Below are positions 1,336 to 64,000 of a stretch of DNA of 64,000 bases, one piece after another. Origin of the DNA: a virus; the IMG/VR virus record IMGVR_UViG_3300046536_000173, positions 19,471 to 83,470 of that record, one strand, 5' to 3'. The translations under genes were made by a program, and so were the position numbers. Positions within the stretch are counted from its first letter, which is position 1, and every line of letters begins with the position of its first letter. Below the pieces are notes generated by a model. That model had not been told where the DNA came from and did not search any database. It worked only from the letters and a program-made list of their open reading frames with translations.

Positions 1336-2594
1336 GCGACGCGATCGGCGCCATCGCGCACGGTGTCGCGCCCCGCCCGCCGCCCGGATCGTCGGATGTC
1401 CTGTCGTTGACCGTGGGCAATCAGACCGTGACCGGCTGGCAACGCGTCTCCGTGACGCGACCGCTCGCCGCGATCCCCGCGAGCTTTTCGATCGAGGTGA
1501 CGGAGCGCTATCCGTCCGCCGCCGACATCGACCTGAAGCCCGGGCATCCGTGCACCGTCAAGATCGGCTCCGATCTCGTGCTGACCGGATACGTTGACCG
1601 CTACGCGTCGAGCATCAGCGCCGCGCAGCACACGATCCGCGTCGAGGGACGCAGCATGTCCGCCGATCTGGTGGATTGCTCCGCGCTTGTCGCGGGCACG
1701 AGCGCCGGAAGCGCCTCGACGCCGGGGCTTCAGGTGCTCAACGGATCGACGCTCGACATCGTGCGCAAGCTCGCCGCGCCTTACGGGGTCACCGTGCAAT
1801 CGACGGCTGGCGACGGCATCCAGGTGCCGCAATTCAACATCAACCTGGGCGAAACCGTGTGGGAGATCGTCGATCGGATCACGCGCTATTCGGAAATGGT
1901 CGCTTATGACATGCCAGACGGCTCGATCATGCTCGCGAAAGTGGGCACGACGCCGATGGCGTCGGGTTTCAAGGTCGGAGTGAACGTTGAAGCCGCCGAC
2001 GTGATGTTTTCGACCGATCAGCGCTATTCCGAATACGAAGGGCATCTGATGTCGATGATGGCGCTGGGCACCGATGGCGGGGTGAATTCGCCAGGGGTCG
2101 GTGAGATCATCCGCGACGATGAAATGACCGCGCTGCGCCGCCCGGACGGAAGCCCGCGCTTCCGCAAGCTCTACATCATCAGCGAGCAATTCGTGATGGG
2201 TCAGCCGCTCGCCGGAAAGCGCGCGATCTGGGAGAAAAATCGACGCTACGGCCAGAGCTTCAACTTCACCGTGACATGCGACGCGTGGCGCGACACCGCC
2301 GGAAAGCTCTGGTCGCCAAACTATCTCGCGCCGATCGACGCCGAAGCGCTGAAGCTAAAGCATCGCGACTGGCTGATCGGCACCGTCACCTATCTCCGCG
2401 ACGAAAGCGGACAACACGCCCGCCTGTCGCTGTGGCCCCCGGAGGCATTCAGCGTCGAGCCGACATCGCCGAACGTGCTGGTCACGCAAGACGATGTGAA
2501 CCGCAACAACGCGACGAAGCCGAACCCGCCCGCCCCGCCCGCGCCCGCCCAATCGAAGGGCACGGCCTTGCCGCCTGGACAGATCGACACATGA
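1332..2594 (+). CDS. Baseplate hub protein (Mu gpP/gp44-like)
   Basis: This 420-aa protein starts at an ATG that overlaps the previous stop (ATGA). It has the hub features of Mu gpP: an N-terminal beta-rich domain ([18 protein letters not shown]), TERYP, GYVDRY, an [16 protein letters not shown] segment, [17 protein letters not shown], and a C-terminal [19 protein letters not shown] tail. It is predicted to form the trimeric hub that joins the tube to the spike. The homologue at 40706-41956 is very close except in the region before NINLGE and at the extreme C-terminus. It sits in the baseplate operon between circularisation protein and spike. Confidence 0.85.
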
Positions 2595-4360
2595 CCGCCG
2601 CCGCGCGCCTGTATCGCCGCGTGATGATGTCGGTGATGCCGATGAAAATCACCGCGACCGACGACAGCGGTCCCGTGCACCGTGCCCAGGTCCGGGGCTT
2701 CCCGAACGAAACGATCGACGCGATGCCGATCCTCCAGATTTACGGTCTCGCCTCGCACGCCATGCCGGGATCCGATGCGATGGCGATGTTCGGCAGCGGC
2801 GACCGATCGAACGGCGTCATCGTCGCGACCGGCAATCAAAAGCATCGGCTGCGCAACCTGAAGTCGGGCGAGGTCGCGCTGTATGACGACAACGCCTCCG
2901 TGCTGAAGCTCGCCAACGGCGGCAACGTCGAGATGACCGCGAAGGGCACGCACACGACGAACGTCCCGACCGTCGTCGTCAACGCGAAGGATGGCGTCAA
3001 GGTCACGACCCCGCTTGTCGATGTGCAGGGGCGGCAAACGATGGCGCATCCGCCCGTCGCCTCGAATGAGGTCGTGACGAAAGCGTATTGCGACGGCAAC
3101 CGGGGCAGCGGATCGCCCGGACCCGCTGGCCCGCCTGGGCCCGAGGGACCGCCTGGACCGACCGGACCGCAAGGCCCGCAAGGCAACACGGGCGCCGCCT
3201 CGACCGTGCCCGGACCCGCAGGCCCGCAGGGGCCGAAGGGCGATCCCGGAGCGACGGGCTCGACCGGATCGCAGGGACCGCAAGGTGCGACCGGAGCGAC
3301 CGGACCACAAGGGCCGCAGGGTGCGAGCGGCATTCCGACCGACGCGCCGTATGACAATTACGCTTACATGCGCGTCAACGCGTCGTGGCAAACCGGGGGC
3401 ACGCTGGCTGGAAGCCTGACCGTCAACGGCAACTTCAACGCCATCGGCAGTTCCGCCGCCGCGTATTTTTACCTCAACCCCACGGGCGGGAGCATTCAGG
3501 GCGACGCGAACTATACTTACTTCTACCAGGACAGCGGCAACTGGCACTGGCGTTACCAGCGCTCGACCGGGATGATGAATTACATCCGTGGCGGCGACTG
3601 GGCGAACCTGTTCCAGGTTGACGGCGGCGGCAGTATTTGGAACCCCGGAAGCGCCACGAGCGGCAACGCGACGACCGGACGGATGCGCGCGACCAACGGA
3701 GTCATGAGTAGCAATGGCCTGATGTATGTCGCCGACAACGACGCTTACTATTTTGGCCGTGGTGGCGACGGCACCTGGACGATCACCGATGGCGGTGTGG
3801 CGAACCTCTATTACAACGGCGGCAACCTGACCGTGAATGGTCGGTTGGCCTGTCAATCGACGGGCGTTTGTTACTCCAACGTCGGGGCGCAGGGCTTCAA
3901 CTTTCGCTGGGACGGCGCGAACTTTTTCATCCGCGCGGACAACTCGGTTGAGTGGGCGCTTCAACCCTGGAGCGACGAGCGAGTTAAAGGGGATATCGCG
4001 CCGTCAACGTTCGATTGCCTCGCCGCCGTTCAAAAAATGCCGCTCTATCAATTCCGCTTTCGCCACGCGCCGGACCCGGCCAAGGCACTTAGCGCCGAGG
4101 TGCCGGAGGGCGCGCCGCTGGTGCCGGTCGGCTTCATCGCGCAGCGCGCCGACGAGGCATTCCCTGGCAGCGCCTTTCGGGGCACCGAAGCCGGGGGCAG
4201 CGTGGGCGGTGCGACGACCTTTTGGCAGATGGACCTCAACGTTGTTTCCGCCGCGCTGTGCGGCGCGGTGAAGCAGCTTGACGCGCGCAACGCCGAACTC
4301 GCCGACACCGTGCGACAGCTATCCGCGCGCCTCGCTCAACTTGAACAAGGGAGACCCTGA
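2591..4360 (+). CDS. Baseplate spike (gp45/gpV-like) fused to collagen-like repeats and a fibre with S74 chaperone
   Basis: This 589-aa protein has three parts. Residues 1 to about 170 resemble Mu gp45, the baseplate assembly/spike protein ([37 protein letters not shown], a beta-helix-like [16 protein letters not shown]). Residues about 174-251 are Gly-X-Y triplets with one AASTVPGP interruption. The rest is a fibre ending in an intramolecular chaperone of the peptidase S74 type, with the catalytic-type Ser-Asp in [10 protein letters not shown] and [12 protein letters not shown], then a terminal coiled coil. In Mu-like phages gp45 is a short spike without a fibre. The homologue at 41953-43800 shares the first two parts but has another C-terminus. 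ATGA overlap with the hub gene. Confidence 0.8.
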
Positions 4361-8945: not shown

Positions 8946-10301
8946 CTAAGCCGCCCTCCTCAACTCGACGACGTTGGTCGCGTCGGTCTCGACCAGCCCG
9001 ACCAGCGCCGACGCGGACGGAGCGCCGTCGAGCAATTGATTCGCCCATGCCGTCGCCAGCGCCCGCCGCTGCGCGACGAATGTCGCCTTGTTGTACCGCC
9101 CCTCGACCTCGCCGAACGCCTTATGCGCGAGCATGACATCGATCACGCGCCCCGCGCCGGGGTCCGCTTCGTTATTGATCGTCGAGAACGTCGCCCGCCA
9201 GCCGTGCACCGTATGCCGCCCCGTCAACCCGACGCGCGGAAGCGCGCGCCCCATGACTTCATTCAGGCACGACCGCTCGACGCTGCCGCGCATCCCCTGA
9301 CCTGGAAATACGAAGTCGGAGGAGACGCCCGCCGCGACCTGGAGCGCGCGCGCCGCCCGGAACACGTCCGTCGCCTGGGGCGCGAGCGGGATGACGTGCT
9401 CGCGCTTGTGTCCGCGCCGTCCCTTCATACGGGCGGCGGGGATCTTCCACGTCATGCCGTCCGCCGTCTCGACAAGCTCGCTCCACCGCGCCTCGACGCC
9501 CTCCAGCTTACGGACAGCCGTCAACGCGATCAGCCGATGCGCGAGCTTCGAGAACGGACCCGACGCGCTCGCCTCCACCGCCCGCAACACCGCCCGCGCC
9601 TCCTCGATCGTCTCGACGTGCGCGCGACTGACCTCGCGCGGATCGCCCGCGACGCGCTTCGGCAAATCCGCCGCGATCGCCCGTACCGGGTTTTCCGTGA
9701 CCAGCTTCCTCCGCAACGCGTAATCGAACAGCAATTGCAAATTCTGTTGCACATGCACCGCTTGCGCGCGGAGCGCCGGTCGATCGCCGCGCGCCTTCGT
9801 CAGGCCGATGATCAGCGCCTCGACCTCGCTCGCCGTGACCCGTGCGATCGGACGATCGCCGATCACCGGGTAAATGTGATTCCGAAGCCGAAGCTCGACG
9901 TTGCGCGTATGCGTCGCCGACCAGCCGCGCGCCTCCTGGGAGATGTCGAACCACGCCGCCCCGACGACGCGCACCGTCGCCGCGTCCGCCTCGCGCCGCG
10001 TCGCGCGCGCCTCCTGCCGATCGTGCGCCGGATCGCCGCCTTCGCGGATTGTGCGCCGCAATTCGTCGCGCTTGCCCTTCGCCTCGACGATCCCGAGATC
10101 GGGCCACCGCCCAATGATCGTCGCCTGATGCTTGCCCGCGACGTGGTAGTGCACCTGCCACGACTTCGCGCCGCCCGCGCCGACCAGCAAGTAAAGCCCG
10201 CCGCCGAAGCGGAGCTTGGCCCCCGCCTTCGCCGCCTTTATGTCCGCGCCCGTCGCGAGCTTGCCCGCTTGCCGCGCCGCGTCCTGAATGGTAGTGGTCA
10301 T
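8946..10301 (-). CDS. int: Tyrosine integrase (P4-like)
   Basis: This 451-aa site-specific recombinase has an N-terminal DUF4102-like arm-binding region (residues 25-95, RFGGGLYLLV..WQVHYHVAGK), a core-binding SAM-like domain (about 110-205), and a catalytic domain with R264 (TAVRKLEG), H366-x-x-R369 (HGWR), H393 (LAHK) and the nucleophile Y403 (GRYNKATF). All key residues are present. It would catalyse integration and excision of unit 2. The ATG has an upstream AAAGGGA. A strong hairpin lies just upstream. It is the last gene of the leftward cluster and is homologous to 50332-51675. Confidence 0.95.
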   Translation of the reverse strand: MTTTIQDAARQAGKLATGADIKAAKAGAKLRFGGGLYLLVGAGGAKSWQVHYHVAGKHQATIIGRWPDLGIVEAKGKRDELRRTIREGGDPAHDRQEARATRREADAATVRVVGAAWFDISQEARGWSATHTRNVELRLRNHIYPVIGDRPIARVTASEVEALIIGLTKARGDRPALRAQAVHVQQNLQLLFDYALRRKLVTENPVRAIAADLPKRVAGDPREVSRAHVETIEEARAVLRAVEASASGPFSKLAHRLIALTAVRKLEGVEARWSELVETADGMTWKIPAARMKGRRGHKREHVIPLAPQATDVFRAARALQVAAGVSSDFVFPGQGMRGSVERSCLNEVMGRALPRVGLTGRHTVHGWRATFSTINNEADPGAGRVIDVMLAHKAFGEVEGRYNKATFVAQRRALATAWANQLLDGAPSASALVGLVETDATNVVELRRAA

Positions 10302-11258: not shown

Positions 11259-11275
11259 ATTGCATTCCGTGCAAG
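11259..11275. promoter_or_regulatory. Operator-like palindrome
   Basis: ATTGCATTCCGTGCAAG is a near copy of the 17-bp operator found at the two early promoters. On the minus strand TTGCAC would serve as a -35 box, with AGGGTA 18 bp further on as a weak -10, driving the gene at 11200. Unit 3 has the same site at 52264-52280 with the full CTTGCA half. Confidence 0.6.
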
Positions 11276-11463: not shown

Positions 11464-11480
11464 CTTGCATGGATTGCAAC
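11464..11480. promoter_or_regulatory. Operator-like palindrome, degenerate
   Basis: CTTGCATGGATTGCAAC matches the operator family except for the last base. The unit 3 copy at 52469-52485 is identical. No good -10 box is spaced correctly on either strand, so it may act as an auxiliary repressor site. Confidence 0.5.
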
Positions 11481-15987: not shown

Positions 15988-16018
15988 AGGTTAGGCCGAA
16001 CCTTGCACGGCATGCAAG
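15988..16018 (-). promoter_or_regulatory. Leftward early promoter PL with operator
   Basis: On the minus strand TTGCAT (16017-16012) and TAACCT (15993-15988) are separated by 18 bp. The -35 box lies inside a palindrome, CTTGCACGGCATGCAAG (16002-16018). Repressor or Cro binding there would block RNA polymerase. The same arrangement with the same -10 is at 57691-57721. Confidence 0.75.
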
Positions 16019-16094: not shown

Positions 16095-16622
16095 CTAATT
16101 GTGGCGGGCTAGCGTCCTGCGCTTTGTCAAACGCCGATGGGAGGAGCCGGATGATTTTTTCGTCGATCGTTCCTCATGCGCATCATGTGCATCATTTGGT
16201 ATTGTTCGCGGTCGGTTCCTGCCGCTGGGCGGTTCCTCATCCGCGAGCGCTCGATTGGCTCGCGCGAAAAGTTCGCTTTGACGTTGCCAGTAATCCGCCG
16301 CGTCCAATAATTCGGGGTTGCCGGCCTTCAAGGCGCGATACAGCCATTGCACCAGATGTTCCGACAACACTCCCGCGACCAGATAATTCGGATCAACCCG
16401 AAAAAGCAGGGAAATCCGAAGCAGATCGACGAACTTAGGCAGGTTCGCGCCCGCCTCCCATCGACCATACATCGCCGGACTGACCCACAACCGCTTGGCC
16501 CATCGCGCCTTGGTGTGATGCTCCGCGCCGAACCTCTCCCCGTATGCCTTGCGCAGCTACCGCAACCGCTCGCCGAAGCCCCTCATCAATAACTTGTCGC
16601 CGCTCTCCTGGCGTTCTGGCAT
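16095..16622 (-). pseudogene. Phage repressor (XRE-type) interrupted by an amber codon
   Basis: The coding frame from the ATG at 16622 reads like the intact repressor of unit 3, but codon 22 is TAG (16557-16559) where unit 3 has TTG. Reading past it gives the XRE helix-turn-helix (KARWAKRLWVSPAMYGRWEAG) and a shared central region (WLYRALKAGNPELLDAADYW). A restart at the internal ATG at 16490 would remove the first HTH helix. A single-base sequencing error, or an amber suppressor in the host, would restore it. The C-terminus diverges from unit 3. Confidence 0.75.
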
Positions 16623-16759: not shown

Positions 16760-16790
16760 CTTGCACGCCATGCAAGTGCTGGCCTAGTGT
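16760..16790 (+). promoter_or_regulatory. Rightward early promoter PR with operator, leaderless
   Basis: TTGCAC (16761-16766) and TAGTGT (16785-16790) are spaced by 18 bp. The -35 box is inside the palindrome CTTGCACGCCATGCAAG (16760-16776). The cro ATG begins 6 nt after the -10 box, where transcription should start, and there is no ribosome site, so the transcript is probably leaderless. Unit 3 has the same geometry at 58507-58543. Confidence 0.75.
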
Positions 16791-16795
16791 GTGGT

Positions 16796-17053
16796 ATGCG
16801 ACACGACCGGATCATCGAACTGTTTGGTGGCAACGTCGCGCTTGGCGATCTGGTTGGTCGCAGCGATAGCGCCGTATCGCGTTGGCGCGTCAACGGCATC
16901 CCGCCGCAATACTGGCTGATGATCGTCGCGCTGTCGCGCAGGCACGCGAGCGAGCAAGTCTCTTTCGAGATGATCGCCGCTGGTCCACCGGTCCGGGCCT
17001 TCGCCGTCCGCCCCAAGATAACCAAGGGCAGAACTCCCGAAACGGTGGCCTAG
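16796..17053 (+). CDS. Cro-like regulator, 85 aa
   Basis: A short helix-turn-helix protein: RIIELFGGNVALGDLVGRSDSA with VSRWRVNGIPPQYW as the recognition helix and wing, typical of Cro/YdaS-type regulators. It is transcribed divergently from the repressor, directly at PR. The C-terminal 30 residues are basic (RPKITKGRTPE). It should bind the CTTGCA-N5-TGCAAG operators. Close to 58543-58803. Confidence 0.8.
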   Translation: MRHDRIIELFGGNVALGDLVGRSDSAVSRWRVNGIPPQYWLMIVALSRRHASEQVSFEMIAAGPPVRAFAVRPKITKGRTPETVA

Positions 17054-21981: not shown

Positions 21982-22055
21982 GCGGCCCATGGCTGTTCGT
22001 GATAGCGATGGCCTTGGTGCTTGCCCTCGATCGCCTTTCGCTGGTCTGCCCCTGA
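21978..22055 (+). CDS. Tiny hydrophobic protein, 25 aa
   Basis: ATGA overlap with the previous gene and TGATG overlap with the HNH gene. Nearly all of it is one hydrophobic helix (WLFVIAMALVLALDRL). Absent from unit 3, where the two flanking genes touch. Possibly only a coupling peptide. Confidence 0.35.
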   Translation: MSGPWLFVIAMALVLALDRLSLVCP

Positions 22056-22387
22056 TGCCGATCGCCTCGCCGGTCTATCATCCGCCCGGTTGGCAGTCGC
22101 GCGCCGATCGACGCCGCGCGCACGACCAGAGCAAGGTGCGGCACTATTCCAACGCCCGCTGGCTCCGTCTCCGCGCCGCGTATCTCGCGACGCATCCATT
22201 GTGCGAGTGCGGATGCAATCGCCCCGCGACCGTCGTCGATCATCGCAAGCCGCATGGCGGCGACGACGCGCTGATGTATGCCTGGGACAACCTCCAGGCG
22301 ATGACGAAGCCGTGCCACGATCGCAAGACGGCGACGCAAGACGGTGGGTTCGGTCGCGCCTCGCGCGCCTCGGTCGGTGCGCGATGA
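22055..22387 (+). CDS. HNH endonuclease next to the packaging genes
   Basis: This 110-aa protein has the packaging-type HNH pattern: RHYSNARWLRLRAAYLATHP, CECGCNRPATVVDHRKPHGG, DNLQAMTKPCHDRKT. In HK97-like phages a small HNH protein near the terminase stimulates cos cleavage. It is followed by ParB-like, accessory and terminase genes. Almost identical to the partial gene at 63691. Confidence 0.8.
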   Translation: MPIASPVYHPPGWQSRADRRRAHDQSKVRHYSNARWLRLRAAYLATHPLCECGCNRPATVVDHRKPHGGDDALMYAWDNLQAMTKPCHDRKTATQDGGFGRASRASVGAR

Positions 22388-22474
22388 TGACGCGATCGAC
22401 CCCCATACGGTGTCCGAAACCGGGATCGATCGTGTGCACTGACCGCGCCCCAACTGATTTTTTAGCTTTCCAAT

Positions 22475-23116
22475 ATGGGCCAGACTGAAGCCGCCGCTTG
22501 GCCCGCCGACCAGATCGAGCGCCGCGACGTGTCCGCGCTCGTGCCGCACGTCCGCAACGCCCGGAAGCACGGCCCCGCGCAGATCGCGGAGATCGCCGGC
22601 CTGATCCGCGAATGGGGCTGGACCGTGCCGATCCTGATCGACGAAGCGAACGGGATCATCGCGGGGCACGGGCGCGTGCTCGCCGCGCAGCAATTGAACA
22701 TCGCCGACGTTCCCGTTGTCGTCGCGCGCGGATGGAGCGACGCGCAAAAGCGCGCATACATGATCGCCGACAACGAAGTGACCGCGCACTCGACCTGGAA
22801 TACGGAGCTATTGCGCGTCGAGCTGGCCGACCTCGCGCAACAGGGCATCGACCTGGAGACGATCGGCTTCAGCGCCGCCGACCTCGCCGCCAAGGGATCG
22901 AGCGAGGGCGAGCTTCCGCAAGCGCTCCAGCTTGAACCCGCCCGCGAGTATTGCGTGATCATGTGCGCCGACCTCGACGAATGGGAACGCCTCAAAGTCG
23001 CGTTGTCGCTGACTCCCGTCCGACGCGGCGGATACAAGCGCGGGTCCGTGCTTGACGACGTGAGCACGCAACGCGTCGTGACCGCCGCCGCCGTCCTGAA
23101 GCTGATCGAGGGGTAA
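22475..23116 (+). CDS. ParB/Srx-domain protein
   Basis: This 213-aa protein begins with a ParB-like nuclease domain: LVPHVRNARKHGPAQIAEIA, LIREWGWTVPILID, NGIIAGHGRVLAAQ, WSDAQKRAYMIADNE. The C-terminal 70 residues are unknown. Such proteins commonly stand before phage terminases; some single-domain ParB proteins are nucleases or work in DNA modification gene sets. It is separated from the HNH gene by 87 bp with a T-rich run (GATTTTTTAG) that holds no gene. Confidence 0.8.
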   Translation: MGQTEAAAWPADQIERRDVSALVPHVRNARKHGPAQIAEIAGLIREWGWTVPILIDEANGIIAGHGRVLAAQQLNIADVPVVVARGWSDAQKRAYMIADNEVTAHSTWNTELLRVELADLAQQGIDLETIGFSAADLAAKGSSEGELPQALQLEPAREYCVIMCADLDEWERLKVALSLTPVRRGGYKRGSVLDDVSTQRVVTAAAVLKLIEG

Positions 23117-24549: not shown

Positions 24550-25064
24550 TGGGACGCCGCCCGAAGCCGACCGCCTTGCACAAGCTCCACGGCACATACA
24601 ACGCGACGAACCACGGACGCGACCGCGCGCAAGAGCCGGTGCCGATGGGCGACCTGGAGGAGCCGCCGCCCGACCTGACCGAAAGCCAGGAAGCCGGATG
24701 GCGCTACGCGATCGCCAACATGCCGAAGGGCGTCGTCAAGCTGATCGATCGCGGCATCCTGAAGGTCTGGATCGAAGCGGAGGATCGCCACAACACCGCG
24801 CGCCTCATGCAAGCGATGCTCGACCAGGACACGAAACTAAAGCTCCTGGTGAAAGGCCCGAACGGGCTGGAGCCGTCGCCTTACAACGTGATCCTCGACA
24901 AGTGCGCGCAAACCATGTTCCGCGCCGCGCAGGAATTGGGCTTCTCGCCCGCCGCGCGTCCGCGCCTGAAGCTCTACGCGCCGCCGCCCGACTCACAAGC
25001 CGCCGCCGACGTGCGCGCCGACCCGTGGGCCATGCTGCAGGTAATCCCTGGTGGCAAGGCGTAA
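24549..25064 (+). CDS. Terminase small subunit, P27 family
   Basis: This 171-aa protein starts with GRRPKPTALHKLHGTYNATN, a family hallmark, followed by a linker (EPPPDLTESQEAGWRYAI), helical parts, and a C-terminal LGFSPAARPRLKL typical of P27 (phi105) small terminases. It recognises the packaging site and recruits the large subunit, whose gene overlaps by 14 nt. Confidence 0.9.
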   Translation: MGRRPKPTALHKLHGTYNATNHGRDRAQEPVPMGDLEEPPPDLTESQEAGWRYAIANMPKGVVKLIDRGILKVWIEAEDRHNTARLMQAMLDQDTKLKLLVKGPNGLEPSPYNVILDKCAQTMFRAAQELGFSPAARPRLKLYAPPPDSQAAADVRADPWAMLQVIPGGKA

Positions 25065-26793
25065 GCCTCCCGCGCCTCCTCCTCCCGGTGATGATCCGCG
25101 CCGCTTCACGCGCGACGCGCTCGACTATGCGAAGCGCACCGCCGACGATCCCGCCGCCGCCTCGATCCACGCCCGCGCCGCGTGCGAGCGCTTCATCCGC
25201 GACCATGCCGAAGCATCGAAGCGCGACACCCGCTGGTCGTTCGACGACACCGCCGCGATCCGCGCGATGGTGTTCGCGACTCAAATGCCCAACATCAAAG
25301 GCCCGGAAGCGAACAAGCCGATCCGCCTGATGGACTGGCAAAAGTTCGCATATAGTAACATTTTCGGGTTCCTGGAGCGTGGCACGACGACCCGCCGCTT
25401 CCGACAGGCGGGCATCTTCGTTCCGAAGGGTAACGGCAAAACAACGATCTCCGCGCCGCTCGCGATGTATATGACATTCGGCGAGGGCGAGGGTGGAGCG
25501 GAGGGCTACGCCGCCGCCGTCACAAGAGATCAGGCCCGCATCCTGTTTGACACCGCGTCGAACATGGTCCGCCGCTCGCCCGACATGCAACGCGCCTGGG
25601 GCGTCGGCGTGCTGACGAATTCGATCTTCCAGGAACGCACCGCCTCGCGCTTCATCCCGATCTCCTCCGACGCGAAGGCGCTCGACGGCCTCAACGTCGC
25701 CGTCGCCGTGTGCGATGAAATCGGATCGCACCGCACGAGCGAAGTCTATGACGCGCTGATAACCGCGATGGGCAAGCGTCATCAGCCGTTCCTCCTGTCG
25801 ATCTCGACCGCGACCAGCAACAGCGCCGGGATCGGAAAACAGGTCTGGGATTACGTGCTCCGCGTCGTGCAAGGCGGGCAGGATGACGATCGGCTGTTCG
25901 GCATCATCTATTCGATCGACGACCAGGATGATCCGTGGGACGAAGCGACCTGGGTCAAGGCAAATCCGGGCTGGGGCCATAGCGTGCAACCGGACGCGAT
26001 CCGCGCGATCATGCGACAGGCCCGCAACAACCCCGCGCAAGAGATGTCCGCCCGGACGCGGCACCTCAACGTGTGGGTCGGCGCCGACGAAGCGCTTTTC
26101 TCAACGCGCGCATGGAACGCGTGCGGCGACGCCTCGCTTCAAATCGCCGCCTTCGAGGGCCGCGAATGTTACATCGGCGTCGATCTCGCCTCGCGCGCCG
26201 ACCTCGCCGCCGTCGTCGCGGTGTTCCCGCAAACCGTCACCGTCGAGGGCCGCGACGCGCTGATGTTCACGGTGTTCGCGCGCTGTTACCTCAACGAAGC
26301 CGCCGTGATGGAAGCGCGCAACCCGTCATATCCGGGGTGGGCCGCGAACAACGAATTGATCATCACGCAAGGCAACGAAACCGACTTCCACACGATCGAG
26401 GCCGACATCCTCGACATGAATTCGCGCTTCCGCCTGATGTCGCTCGCCTTCGATCCCTTCAACAGCGTGCACATGGCGCAACGCCTGACCGCGCGCGGTG
26501 TGCCGTGCCGCGAATTCCGATCGAACGCGCAAAACTTCAGCCCCGCGACGCGTGAACTCGAAGCCGCGATCCGGGGCAGTCGCATTCAACACGACATGAA
26601 CGGCCCGCTGGGCTGGTGCATCGGAAACGTCGTCGGCCACACCGACGCCCGCGACAACGTGTATCCGCGCAAAGCACGCCCGGAGAACAAGATCGACGCC
26701 GCGATCGCGCTGATCATGGCGATCGCGCAAGCGACCGATCTCGCCGCAGCGCCCTCCGTTTACGAGACAAGGGGGTTGATCACACTCGGATGA
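25051..26793 (+). CDS. Terminase large subunit (Terminase_1, HK97-type)
   Basis: This 580-aa GTG-started protein has the ATPase Walker A at about residue 124 (VPKGNGKTT), the Walker B at about 217 (VAVCDEIG), the C motif region (LLSISTATSN), and the nuclease part beginning with GVDLASRADLAAV (about 376) and ending with DAAIALIMAIA. It cuts and pumps DNA into proheads. It is followed by the portal with a 4-nt overlap. Confidence 0.95.
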   Translation: MARRKPPAPPPPGDDPRRFTRDALDYAKRTADDPAAASIHARAACERFIRDHAEASKRDTRWSFDDTAAIRAMVFATQMPNIKGPEANKPIRLMDWQKFAYSNIFGFLERGTTTRRFRQAGIFVPKGNGKTTISAPLAMYMTFGEGEGGAEGYAAAVTRDQARILFDTASNMVRRSPDMQRAWGVGVLTNSIFQERTASRFIPISSDAKALDGLNVAVAVCDEIGSHRTSEVYDALITAMGKRHQPFLLSISTATSNSAGIGKQVWDYVLRVVQGGQDDDRLFGIIYSIDDQDDPWDEATWVKANPGWGHSVQPDAIRAIMRQARNNPAQEMSARTRHLNVWVGADEALFSTRAWNACGDASLQIAAFEGRECYIGVDLASRADLAAVVAVFPQTVTVEGRDALMFTVFARCYLNEAAVMEARNPSYPGWAANNELIITQGNETDFHTIEADILDMNSRFRLMSLAFDPFNSVHMAQRLTARGVPCREFRSNAQNFSPATRELEAAIRGSRIQHDMNGPLGWCIGNVVGHTDARDNVYPRKARPENKIDAAIALIMAIAQATDLAAAPSVYETRGLITLG

Positions 26794-40709: not shown

Positions 40710-41956
40710 GCGCCGCGATCGGCGCCATCGCGCACGGTGTCACGACGCACGGCCCGCCACCCGGAGCCGCCGACGTGCTGTCGTTGACCGTGGGCAATCA
40801 GACCATCACCGGATGGCAGCGCGTCTCCGTGACCCGCCCGCTCGCCGCGATCCCCGCGAGCTTTTCGATCGAGGTGACGGAGCGCTATCCGAACGCCGCC
40901 GACATCGACCTGAAGCCGGGGTTTCCGTGCACCGTCAAGATCGGTTCCGATCTCGTGCTGACCGGATACGTTGACCGCTACACGTCCGCGATCAGCGCTT
41001 CACAGCACACGATCCGCGTCGAGGGCCGGAGCATGTCGGAGGATCTGGTCGATTGCTCCGCCGTCGTCAAAAAAACGAGCGCGGGCAACACGCCGACGCA
41101 AGGACTCCAGATACGCAACGGCGACGTGCTCTCGATCGTGCGCGCGCTCGCCGCCCCTTACGGCGTGACCGTCCAGTGCGACGCGCCGGGGCCTTTCAGG
41201 GCAATTCCCCAATTCAACATCAACCTGGGCGAAACCGTGTGGGAGATCATCGACCGGATCACGAGATATTCAAAGCTGATCGCTTACGACATGCCGGATG
41301 GCTCGATCATGCTTTCCGAAGTCGGAAAGGTGTCGATGGCGTCCGGGTTCAGGATCGGAGTCAACGTCGAGACCGCCGACGTGATGTTTTCGACAGATCA
41401 GCGTTATTCCGAATATGAAGGCCACCTGATCGCGATGATGTCGCTCGGCACCGACGCGGGCGAAAACTTTCCGACTGTTGGCGAGATCGTGCGCGACGAT
41501 GAAATGGCCGCGCTGCGCCGCCCGGACGGAAGCCCACGCTTCCGCAAGCTCTACGTCATCAGTGAACAATTCGACATGGGTCGTCCGATCGCGGGCGACC
41601 GTGCCGCCTGGGAGAAAAATCGCCGCTGGGGCCAGAGCTTCAACTTCAGCGTGACGACCGACGCGTGGCGCGACGCATCGGGTAAGCTGTGGTCGCCGAA
41701 CTATCTCGCCCCGATCGACGCCGAAGCGCTGAAGCTGAAGCATCGCGACTGGCTGATCGGCACCGTGACCTATCTGCGCGACGAAAGCGGACAGCACGCG
41801 CACCTGTCGCTGTGGCCGAAAGAGGCTTTCACCGTCGAGCCGACATCGCCGAACGTGCTGGTCACGCAAGACGACGTGAACCGCAACAACGCGACGAAGC
41901 CGAACCCGCCCGCGCCACAGCACAAAATGCTGACCGAGGAGGAGATCAGCCTTTGA
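40706..41956 (+). CDS. Baseplate hub protein (Mu gpP/gp44-like)
   Basis: This 416-aa protein parallels 1332-2594: [74 protein letters not shown]. Differences cluster around 41050-41200 and at the C-terminus, which ends in LTEEEISL instead of a Pro-rich tail; these ends face the different spikes. Confidence 0.85.
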
Positions 41957-43800
41957 CCGCGACCGCGCGTCTGTATCGCCGCGTGATGATGTCGGTGATG
42001 CCGATGAAAATCACGGCGACCGACGACACCGGGCCGATCCACCGCGCACAGGTGCGCGGGTTCCCGCTTGAAACAATCGACGCGATGCCGGTGCTCCAGA
42101 TTTACGGCCTCGCCTCGCATGCCGAACCGGGATCCGATGCGATGGCGATGTTCGCCTCCGGCGACCGATCGAACGGCGTCATCGTCGCGACGGGCAATCA
42201 AAAGCATCGCTTGCGCAACCTGAAGTCGGGCGAGGTCGCGCTTTACGACAACACCGACAATCAAAGCGTGCTGAAGCTCGCCAACGGCGGCAACATCGAG
42301 GTTAGCGCGAGCACGAAGCACACGACGACGGTCCCGACCGTCGAGGTCAACGCGAAGGAAGGGGTCAAGGTCACGACGCCGCTGGTCGATGTCCAGGGGC
42401 GGCAAACGATGTCGCACGATCCCGTCGCGTCGAACGAAGTCGTCACGAAGTCATATTGCGACGCGAACCGGGGAGGAGGATCAGCGGGACCGCCCGGACC
42501 TCCCGGCCCGACCGGACCGCAAGGGCCGCAGGGACCGGCTGGACCCGCTGGAGCGACCGGACCCGCTGGCGCCGCCTCGACCGTGCCCGGACCCGCTGGA
42601 CCCGCTGGAGCGAAGGGCGATCCCGGAGCGACCGGAGCGCCGGGACCAACCGGAGCGACGGGGCCGCAGGGAGTCGCCGGAACGCCCGGAGCCGCTGGCG
42701 CGACCGGAGCGCAAGGCCCGAAGGGCGACACGGGATCGCAAGGGACGCAGGGACCGCCTGGGGCGGACTCGACCGTGCCAGGACCAACCGGACCCGCTGG
42801 CGCGCAAGGCCCGCAGGGCGTGCCAGGAACGCCGGGGGCTACGGGATCGACCGGACCGCAGGGCGTGCCCGGAGCGGACTCGATCGTGCCCGGACCACAA
42901 GGCCCGCAGGGTGTCCAGGGCGTGCCCGGAACGCCTGGAGCCACCGGAGCGCAGGGACCGATCGGACTGACCGGCGCGCCTGGAGCCGACAGCACCGTGC
43001 CCGGACCACAGGGACCGCAAGGCCCGATCGGACTGACCGGAGCGACGGGACCGAAGGGCGACACCGGGGCCACGGGGACGCAGGGACCGCCTGGAGCCGA
43101 CAGCACCGTGCCCGGACCAACCGGAGCGACGGGGCCGCAGGGTGTCCAGGGCGTCGCCGGAACGCCCGGAGCGACGGGAGCGCAGGGACCGAAGGGCGAC
43201 ACCGGAGCGACCGGAGCCGCCTCGACCGTTCCCGGCCCGCAGGGGCCGAAGGGTGACACGGGCGCGACGGGGCCAGCCGGAAGCACCGTGGCATCTGGCG
43301 TATCGTTCGCGCCCGCTGGGAACGTCGCCGCGACGAACGTGCAGGGCGCGATCGCCGAGGTGGACGCGGAGAAGGTCGCCAAGAGTGGCGACGTGATGAC
43401 CGGGAACCTTAAAATCTCCGTGGCCGACAACGCCCTTGGGCTACTGGTCAACGGCGCGACCACAGGTGTCCGCTTCGTCGCGGGCCCAGGTGGCATATCA
43501 ATCGAAGGTGTAGATAATAGCGGGGTCGGTTCCTATCAGCCGCTCAATTTCTATGGGTCGGTAATTAAATTCAATCAGGCTGTTACGCTGATCGCCGATC
43601 CCGCCGCCCCGTTGGAAGCGGCGACGAAACAATACGTTGACAACACGATCACCGCCCGGATCGGACACTCGCAATGGGATGGCGTCGGCCTCGCCGAGAC
43701 GCGCCCCGGAGACGACGCGCCGCCCGACCTGATCGCCGAGATGCGCGCGACGATCGCCGACCTCGCCGCCCGCGTCGCCGTGCTGGAGGCTCGCGCATGA
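41953..43800 (+). CDS. Baseplate spike (gp45-like) with long collagen-like domain, TTG start
   Basis: The TTG overlaps the hub stop (TTGA). This 615-aa protein has a spike domain (1 to about 170, close to unit 1) and collagen-like Gly-X-Y repeats of about 270 residues (about 176-449). The repeats are interrupted at intervals by ADSTVPGP or AASTVPGP, after which the triplet phase is kept. A C-terminal domain ([20 protein letters not shown]) ends in a coiled coil ([15 protein letters not shown]) for trimerisation. There is no S74 chaperone, unlike unit 1. It is probably a long flexible trimeric fibre emerging at the tail tip. Confidence 0.8.
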
Positions 43801-50141: not shown

Positions 50142-50335
50142 CAGACCTCCTCCCCGTCGTCGCTCGCCTGTCGATCGATCTCCTCGGCGCGCTCCAAAAA
50201 TTTCCGACTGAAAAGCGCTTTCAGCATGACACGCTGATCCGCTGGAGCGCGCGCGAGGATGATCCCTTCGATCCCCGTCATCTGAAGCTGAAGGATGCGA
50301 ACTTCGCGCCAGAGCGCTTCGATGTCATCGCTCAT
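50141..50335 (-). CDS. Hypothetical helical protein, 64 aa
   Basis: The ATG overlaps the int stop (ATGA). Helical (IEALWREVRILQLQMTGIEG, ALFSRKFLERAEEIDR). Unit 3 only. Function unknown. Confidence 0.55.
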   Translation of the reverse strand: MSDDIEALWREVRILQLQMTGIEGIILARAPADQRVMLKALFSRKFLERAEEIDRQASDDGEEV

Positions 50336-51675
50336 GCCGCCCTCCTCATCTCGACGACGTTCGTCATGTCCGCCTCGACCAGCCCGACCAGCGCCGACGC
50401 GGACGGCGCGCCCGCGAGCACCTGATCCGCCCATGCGCTCGCGAGCTTGCGCCGCTCCGCGATGAACGTCGCTTTGTTGTATCGCGCCTCGACCTCGCCG
50501 AACGCCTTATGCGCGAGCATGACATCGATCACGCGATACGCGCCCGGATCAGCTTCGTTGCACAGTGTCGAGAACGTCGCCCGCCAGCCGTGCACGACAT
50601 GCCGCCCCGCCAGCCCGACGCCCGGAAGCGCCCTTTCCATCACGTCGTTGAGCACCGCCGCCGACATGCTGTCGCGCTTGTTCTGACCCGGAAACACGAA
50701 GTCGGAGACGATGCCCGCCGCCGCCTGGAGATCGCGCGCCGCCCGGAACACGTCCGCCGCCTGGAGCGACAGCGGAATGACATGATCGCGCTTCTGACCG
50801 CGCCGCCCCTTCATCCGCTCGCCGGGGATCTTCCACGTCATGCCCTCCGCGCCGTCGCTGATCTCCGACCACCGCGCGCCGATCCCTTCGAGCTTGCGGA
50901 CAGCCGTCAACGCGATCAGCCGATGCGCGAGCTTCACGAACGGGCCGGCGCTCGACGCCTCGACCGCCGCCAGGACTCGCCGCGCCTCCTCGATCGTCTC
51001 GACGTGCGCCCGACTGACCTCGCGCGCGTCGCCCCTGATCCGCTTCGGCAAATCCTCCGCGATCTTGCGCACTGGATTGACCGCGAGGAGATCGCGCCGC
51101 ACCGCGTAGTCGAACATCAATTGCATGTGCTGGCGGACGTGCACCGCTTGCGCCCGGAGCTTCGCCCGCACGAGCGACAACACGACCGCCTCGACCTCGA
51201 CCGCGCCGACCCGCCCGATCGCCCGATCCCCGATCACCGGATAAACGTGCTTCGTCATCCGCTGCGCGACCATCCGCGCATACGGTGGCGACCAGCCGCG
51301 CGCCTCCTGGGCCGTCTCGATCCACGCCGCCCCGATGACCCGCACCGTCGCCGCGTCGCCGTCACGCCGCACCGCGCGCGCCTCCTGACGGTCCTGGGCC
51401 GGATCGCCCCCGTCGCGCACCGTGCGCGCGATGTCGTCGCGCTTCGTCCGCGCCTCGACGATCCCGAGATCGGGCCAACGCCCGATGATCGTCGCCTGAT
51501 GCTTGCCCGCGACGTGGTAGTGCACCTGCCACGACTTCGCGCCGCCCTTGCCGACCAGCAAGTAAAGCCCGCCGCCGAAGCGGAGCCGCGCCCCCGCCTT
51601 CGCCGTCTTAATGTCCGCGCCCGTCGCCAGCTTACCCGCTTGCCCCGCCGCGCCCTGAGTGGTAGTGGTTGTCAC
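50332..51675 (-). CDS. int: Tyrosine integrase, GTG start
   Basis: This 447-aa homologue of the unit 2 integrase has the full catalytic set: TAVRKLEG (Arg), HGWR (His and Arg), LAHKAFGEVE (His), ARYNKATF (Tyr). An open frame continues upstream but includes the terminator hairpin, so the GTG matching the unit 2 start was chosen. Similar arm-binding and core-binding regions suggest it uses the same att sites. Confidence 0.95.
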   Translation of the reverse strand: MTTTTTQGAAGQAGKLATGADIKTAKAGARLRFGGGLYLLVGKGGAKSWQVHYHVAGKHQATIIGRWPDLGIVEARTKRDDIARTVRDGGDPAQDRQEARAVRRDGDAATVRVIGAAWIETAQEARGWSPPYARMVAQRMTKHVYPVIGDRAIGRVGAVEVEAVVLSLVRAKLRAQAVHVRQHMQLMFDYAVRRDLLAVNPVRKIAEDLPKRIRGDAREVSRAHVETIEEARRVLAAVEASSAGPFVKLAHRLIALTAVRKLEGIGARWSEISDGAEGMTWKIPGERMKGRRGQKRDHVIPLSLQAADVFRAARDLQAAAGIVSDFVFPGQNKRDSMSAAVLNDVMERALPGVGLAGRHVVHGWRATFSTLCNEADPGAYRVIDVMLAHKAFGEVEARYNKATFIAERRKLASAWADQVLAGAPSASALVGLVEADMTNVVEMRRAA

Positions 51676-52204: not shown

Positions 52205-52494
52205 GTTGGAGTCACCTTTCATGCGGAATTCATGCGATCGAGGATGTCATACCCTGTCACCGCCTTGCATTCCGTGCAAGGCTGGGTGCGCGCATGAGGC
52301 TGAAAATGCAAGAGAATGTCACCGCCAGACATCGCCTGACATGTCACCCCGCAATGTGGTGAACAACGTCGGATGATGGTCTAAGTGGCTGTGGCAGTAG
52401 GGTTTCCGTCGAAGCGCGCGCCCGATCATGCGAGGCATCATGCGAGGCCGCATGGGTGCCCCGTTGGCCTTGCATGGATTGCAACCGCCGCCGC
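52205..52494. promoter_or_regulatory. Conserved intergenic control region, attP-like
   Basis: The counterpart of 11201-11483. Operator-like palindromes at 52264-52280 (CTTGCATTCCGTGCAAG) and 52469-52485. CATGCG hexamers at 52220, 52231, 52427 and 52439, and inverted at 52449. The invariant 39-bp block is at 52370-52408. No gene is seen in these 290 bp. Confidence 0.55.
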
Positions 52495-57690: not shown

Positions 57691-57721
57691 AGGTTAGGCC
57701 GAACCTTGCATGACGTGCAAG
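57691..57721 (-). promoter_or_regulatory. Leftward early promoter PL with operator
   Basis: Minus-strand TTGCAC (57720-57715) and TAACCT (57696-57691) with an 18-bp spacer; operator CTTGCATGACGTGCAAG at 57705-57721. The operator half-sites are the same as in unit 2 and only the central bases differ. Confidence 0.75.
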
Positions 57722-58506: not shown

Positions 58507-58537
58507 CTTGCACGTCATGCAAGTCCGGGCCTAGTGT
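58507..58537 (+). promoter_or_regulatory. Rightward early promoter PR with operator, leaderless
   Basis: TTGCAC (58508-58513), 18 bp, TAGTGT (58532-58537); operator CTTGCACGTCATGCAAG at 58507-58523. The cro ATG starts at 58543, 6 nt after the -10 box, with no ribosome site. Confidence 0.75.
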
Positions 58538-58542
58538 GCGGC

Positions 58543-58803
58543 ATGCGACACGACCGGATCATCGAACTGTTTGGCGGCAACGTCGCGCTCGGCGAGCTTG
58601 TCGGGCGCAGCGACAGCGCCGTGTCGCGTTGGCGCGTCAACGGCATCCCGCCGAACTATTGGCCGTTGGTCGCCATGCTGTCGCGCAAGCACGCGACGAA
58701 GGAAGTCACGATCGAAAGCCTCGCCGCTGGCCCGCCGGTCAGGGGAGCTTTCCCCTACCGCGCCAGAACGACGAAGGGCCGAACCGCCGCGCCGGTGGCC
58801 TAG
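58543..58803 (+). CDS. Cro-like regulator, 86 aa
   Basis: Homologue of 16796-17053: RIIELFGGNVALGELVGRSD, SAVSRWRVNGIPPNYW. The recognition part is identical in both units, which predicts cross-regulation. Basic C-terminus. Followed after 3 nt by the VRR-NUC gene. Confidence 0.8.
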   Translation: MRHDRIIELFGGNVALGELVGRSDSAVSRWRVNGIPPNYWPLVAMLSRKHATKEVTIESLAAGPPVRGAFPYRARTTKGRTAAPVA

Positions 58804-63367: not shown

Positions 63368-63691
63368 GTGACAATCCGCTTCGAGCGTGGCGCCGTCGTG
63401 CGCTGCAATTCCCGCACCTGGATCGTCTGGACCTATCCCGGAGGGGACGGGTTCGCCGATCCGATCGCGCTCCCCGTGATGTCCCAAACCGGGCCGCGCC
63501 ATCGCTCGCAAGAACGCCTCGACCTCGCCGGTCGGGCGATCCTCGTGCATCTCCTCGACCCGGTGAGCTTGCCCGGAGACGCTTGCGAACGGATCGGACA
63601 ATGCGCGCCCGACATCGTGTCGCGCCTCGCCGCGAGTATGCAACGCGCGATCGACGCCGCCGAACTTGAACGCCGGAGGAGCGGGATCTGA
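63368..63691 (+). CDS. Possible MazF/PemK-fold protein, 107 aa
   Basis: GTG start. Homologue of 21652-21981: IRFERGAVVRCNSRTWIVWT, DPIALPVMSQTGPRHRSQER, RAILVHLLDPVSLP, APDIVSRLAASMQRAID. It directly touches the HNH gene; the family is suggested by eye only. Confidence 0.4.
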   Translation: MTIRFERGAVVRCNSRTWIVWTYPGGDGFADPIALPVMSQTGPRHRSQERLDLAGRAILVHLLDPVSLPGDACERIGQCAPDIVSRLAASMQRAIDAAELERRRSGI

Positions 63692-64000
63692 TGCCGATCG
63701 CCTCGCCGGTCTATCATCCGCCCGGTTGGCAGTCGCGCGCCGATCGACGCCGCGCGCACGACCAGAGCAAGGCGCGGCACTACAGCAACGCCCGCTGGCT
63801 CCGTCTCCGCGCCGCGTATCTCGCGACGCATCCGCTGTGCGAGTGCGGATGCAATCGCCCCGCGACCGTCGTCGATCATCGCAAGCCGCATGGTGGCGAC
63901 GACGCGCTGATGTATGCCTGGGACAACCTCCAGGCGATGACGAAGCCTTGCCACGATCGCAAGACGGCGACGCAAGACGGCGGGTTCGGCAATCCGATGC
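63691..64000 (+). CDS. HNH endonuclease near packaging genes, 3' end cut by window
   Basis: The first 103 residues are almost identical to 22055-22387 (CECGCNRPATVVDHRKPHGG, DNLQAMTKPCHDRKTATQDG). The gene continues beyond the window. The final residues (GFGNPM) already differ from unit 2. Confidence 0.8.
   Translation, partial: MPIASPVYHPPGWQSRADRRRAHDQSKARHYSNARWLRLRAAYLATHPLCECGCNRPATVVDHRKPHGGDDALMYAWDNLQAMTKPCHDRKTATQDGGFGNPM

Follow-up and report, generated by a model that had tools for sequence, protein, structure and literature searches.

The window analysed here comprises the final 64,000 bases of an 83,470-bp virus record, which probably represents two separate homoimmune temperate phages (A and B) joined by the assembler, with phage A being a natural repressor-null mutant. 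According to this interpretation, two related temperate siphophages with cos ends would have been linked by the assembler at a sequence that they share just past cos, and the immunity repressor of phage A would recently have been interrupted by a nonsense mutation at codon 22. Retaining an intact integrase, a Cro-like gene and operators, phage A would replicate lytically without holding lysogeny, i.e., it would be a clear mutant, and a lysogen of phage B would be expected to be immune to phage A by virtue of a B repressor of the same specificity (homoimmunity).

The immunity-repressor gene of phage A (16095–16622, minus strand; assigned by translation and homology with intact relatives) is interrupted by TAG at codon 22 (16557–16559, minus strand). 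Its translation reads MPERQESGDKLLMRGFGERLR up to the stop and continues in the same frame with LRKAYGERFG. The homologous and intact repressor gene of phage B (57817–58368, minus strand) has a Leu codon at this position, in agreement with the first-pass annotation, which had reported TAG opposite a sense codon; among further relatives, codon 22 is Leu in G004, G005 and G008 and Ser in G006. The assignment as repressor is based on a helix-turn-helix (HTH) gene divergent from a Cro-like gene, with palindromic candidate operators at both early promoters, an arrangement conserved in the relatives. The phage B protein matches HTH_3 above cutoff (Pfam) as well as a transcriptional regulator family (phrog_8), and a family profile from five relatives yielded a single PDB match at E ≤ 0.1, namely the DNA-binding domain of the P22 C2 repressor (E 0.012). 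The S24 autocleavage domain forms the C-terminal part of lambda cI and P22 C2, but is not present in every phage repressor. Since no Pfam match to S24 was obtained at E ≤ 1, the protein is classed by sequence as a phage HTH repressor outside the S24 family. Relatives of the repressor were neither found in bacterial genomes nor detectable among phage records.

A structure model of the repressor is of low confidence (mean pLDDT 54) and was used solely for the positions of the helices (residues 16–31, 38–44 and 49–56). Codon 22 would accordingly lie within helix 1 (16–31) of the DNA-binding domain. Its earlier placement upstream of the HTH thus holds for the HTH helices proper (38–44 and 49–56), to which it is located 5', but not for the DNA-binding domain as a whole, inside which it falls in this low-confidence model. 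The expected amber product consists of 21 residues and is devoid of the HTH, so that the amber codon probably breaks the phage A repressor; the inactivation initially proposed is in line with this expected loss.

The TAG is the only internal stop among homologous gene pairs of phages A and B within 83 kb, once flagged stops representing gene ends, one spurious match of 28 % identity and an ORF antisense to the phage A repressor gene were set aside. Codons 23–126 display a dN of ~0.07 and a dS of ~0.42 between the A and B repressors, compared to ~0.05 and ~0.40 for the intact pair B–G004; the C-terminal tail past residue ~130 varies in all relatives. The frame past the stop is hence constrained as in intact relatives, confirming the earlier statement that it is otherwise conserved, and the stop is therefore recent, or else a base error. 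An old pseudogene was rejected, since dN/dS equals that of intact pairs.

An error in sequencing or consensus, or a minority allele, in which case the phage A repressor would be functional, is an unlikely but not negligible explanation of the TAG. In its favour are the single base in one record and the normal constraint on codons 23–126. A second copy of the repressor region of phage A was sought as an exact match in viral contigs, with records near the window possibly excluded, and none was found, so that the TAG rests on a single consensus base. Likewise, the left end of A, the cos joint and the right end of B have no exact match in viral contigs, which leaves no second assembly to corroborate either the TAG or the joint. 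Against an error argue the other conserved gene pairs, whose freedom from internal stops indicates a low error rate, and the natural existence of repressor-null mutants of temperate phages (PMC6550527).

Self-alignment of the record reveals nearly every map position twice and in the same order, at ~75–93 % identity and an offset of 39–42 kb; as genomes, A and B are ~80 % identical and ~42 kb each. Host-like DNA is not left over in the self-aligned 83 kb, which contain neither a host flank nor a host att junction. The contig opens with 99 bases that recur as an exact copy at 22904–23002 (plus strand), marking the branch point between A and B, and this repeat of exactly 99 bp is the longest among the exact repeats of at least 60 bp in the record. 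The sequence from the contig start to 22903 closes as a circle of 42,373 bp (phage A) carrying the amber-interrupted repressor gene, and the sequence after 22903 would then represent phage B, which carries the uninterrupted gene. When circle A is closed, an intact 213-aa ParB-like gene is restored; comparison of this branch-point-spanning gene with relatives gave counts that do not assign its first part to A or B. Terminal repeats of 55, 77 and 99 bp are reported to mirror assembler k-mer lengths on circular templates, and genome copies are sometimes concatenated by assemblers (PMC8116208). Closure by an exact repeat of such a k-mer length (99 bp), as found here, is shared with concatenated or k-mer-repeat contigs described for CheckV and IMG/VR, as is the genome-length duplication; in contrast to those contigs, which contain the same genome twice, the copies here are related strains (~80 % identity) (PMC8116208). 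Moreover, contig G001 (25,368 bp) from another data set, 99.996 % identical to phage B from 22900 to 48267, breaks off at 22900, i.e., within 4 bp of the branch point. Taken together, the A–B joint is most likely an assembly artefact. The view of the amber-carrying unit as a complete prophage is therefore not supported by a contig free of host DNA, in which the interrupted gene belongs to a circle closing on a 99-bp repeat, and the supposed neighbour with the intact repressor appears as a second genome starting at cos/22904.

The natural ends of these phages are evident from related contigs, located via the ParB-like protein, several of which stop exactly at the same site and without a 9-nt segment (CGCGCCCCA) that is present and crossed in the record at 22444–22452. 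The start of G002 and the end of G007 correspond to position 22453, and G004 ends near 22443. Right ends of the relatives read CTGAC and left ends ACTGATTTTTT or GAGGATTTTTT, with CGCGCCCCA absent between them. From these contig ends, the common end is assigned as the cos site, and the overhangs are probably 3', given that the segment is missing on either side. Contig G008 (43,436 bp) extends from cos to cos, with ParB, late genes, integrase, repressor and HNH endonuclease genes in this order; its first bases (CCGATCT) look like the tail of an Illumina adapter, which fits a physical terminus of the DNA. The complete motif (CTGAC-CGCGCCCCA-A) is conserved in this group of uncultured phages (G002, G003, G004, G006, G007 and G008). 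The first gene after cos is the ParB-like gene (22475–23116), shortly before that of the terminase large subunit, a place usually taken by a small terminase gene.

Since the relatives end at the same cos, the natural unit runs from cos to cos, and the second unit delineated in the first-pass annotation (~8.9–49.5 kb) appears to combine the early half of A with the late half of B. In the record, phage A lacks the ~451 bp between cos and the contig start, and phage B ends ~80 bp short of the cos-aligned position and is thus not closed. Accordingly, the contig ends are located within ~460 bp and 80–100 bp of cos; the chance of two random ends being so close is ~1e-4, with the start being also explained by the shared 99-mer. 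Apart from the unclosed phage B, the favoured interpretation is weakened by the presence of the 9-nt segment where the record crosses cos, which implies that some molecules had joined ends; these could be circles, concatemers or prophages. The junction between the integrase gene and the late genes is the same and uninterrupted in all relatives reaching that far.

Both phages possess palindromic candidate operators with the consensus CTTGCAYG-N-CRTGCAAG. The pattern CTTGCAYGNCRTGCAAG, for which none is expected by chance, was found at 16002, 16760, 57705 and 58507, each site being composed of one CTTGCACG and one CTTGCATG half-site. Per phage, one site precedes the leftward Gp157/Gam-like and RecT genes (CTTGCACGGCATGCAAG, 16002–16018, in A; CTTGCATGACGTGCAAG, 57705–57721, in B) and one the Cro-like gene (CTTGCACGCCATGCAAG, 16760–16776, in A; CTTGCACGTCATGCAAG, 58507–58523, in B). 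The Cro-like protein of A, a carph-isopro HTH protein encoded divergently from the repressor (16796–17053, plus strand), has TAG as its stop codon; that of B (58543–58803, plus strand) was assigned by homology. The tyrosine integrase genes are located at 8946–10301 in A, with an intact frame, and at 50332–51675 in B (both minus strand). Eight copies of the looser palindrome TTGCA-N5-TGCAA were found across the record (0.05 expected in a first-order Markov model), at four homologous places per phage; four sites exist at matching places in G004, G006 and G008, and two in partial relatives. Two of these operator-like palindromes, ~205 bp apart, are situated on the integrase side in A (11260–11274 and 11465–11479) and likewise in B (52265–52279 and 52470–52484), a pair also observed in the relatives.

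The half-sites of A and B are identical, as noticed previously, and the near-identity claimed for the HTH regions is reflected in the recognition-helix region, VSPAMYGRWE in both repressors. Considering the same recognition helix together with identical half-sites, a common immunity specificity of A and B is likely, and the intact repressor may well act on the operators of the other phage, as had been suggested.

The reading proposed initially is that of real tandem prophages in one chromosome, with the amber prophage silenced by the repressor of its neighbour. This arrangement is improbable, even though it would be compatible with the head-to-tail order, with the common half-sites and recognition helix, and with a cos crossed including its 9-nt segment. 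Tandem prophages should form units from attL to attR with ends unrelated to cos, whereas the relatives run from cos to cos and share the same uninterrupted integrase/late junction wherever they reach it. In addition, the contig begins exactly on a k-length copy of internal sequence, and both of its ends are located near cos, where related contigs stop. The 83 kb without host DNA point in the same direction, although this is weaker than a disproof, since the contig could sit inside a longer array.

Still less probable is that A and B are adjacent in one cell, with the null phage A stably kept solely by the B repressor in trans. A repressor-null phage with intact integrase, Cro-like gene and operators would be expected to grow lytically and needs no neighbour; the proposed dependence on trans immunity thus does not follow for a free phage. 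Least credible is a working repressor formed by readthrough with a host suppressor tRNA or by restart after the amber codon, for which the conserved frame past the stop could be quoted, since tRNA genes, including any for a phage-borne suppressor, were not found anywhere in the record, other predicted genes of A end on TAG, and the next usual starts (TTG at codon 45 and ATG at codon 51) are both within the HTH, such that reinitiation there would yield no whole domain. Stop-codon reassignment was likewise discarded, as TAG terminates other predicted genes of both phages.

Two separate phages joined by the assembler, one of them a repressor-null mutant, would have counterparts in known systems. 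Among Cluster A mycobacteriophages, MissWhite and D29 are natural isolates that derive from temperate phages but are obligately lytic, and the Bxb1 escape mutant phiTM45 carries a nonsense mutation in rep (PMC6550527). Phage A resembles the lytic Cluster A derivatives in its temperate architecture with a broken immunity repressor and other lysogeny genes kept, but is unrelated to them, and its mutation is a single codon in one metagenomic consensus. The immunity region shares with that of P22/lambda-type phages (C2/cI, Cro) the opposite orientation of the HTH repressor and Cro-like genes as well as a palindromic operator at each early promoter, yet differs in the operator sequence and in a repressor without detected S24 domain.

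Phage A therefore looks like an ordinary repressor mutant of a known kind rather than a new type of dependence. If the favoured interpretation holds, an uncultured group of temperate phages has yielded a natural repressor-null mutant, sampled alongside a phage of the same immunity, and the immunity system of this group would be clearly mapped, each genome having four operators that are also conserved in the relatives. The record also serves as a warning, as two joined genomes in a virus record can mimic a tandem prophage array and invite trans-immunity readings.

The terminase large subunit (25051–26793) shares at most ~38 % identity with phage records among the matches listed (e.g., Komagataeibacter phage phiKM1), which did not include a close cultured relative. 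The HNH endonuclease genes (22052–22353 and 63688–63989) are 97 % identical between the two phages, as opposed to 78–81 % in their surroundings, and a recent exchange between A and B is possible. A predicted 615-aa gene of B (41953–43800) contains internal direct repeats (42478–43264) of 66–71 % identity in steps of ~190–580 bp, and its homologue in A (2591–4360) has fewer of them.
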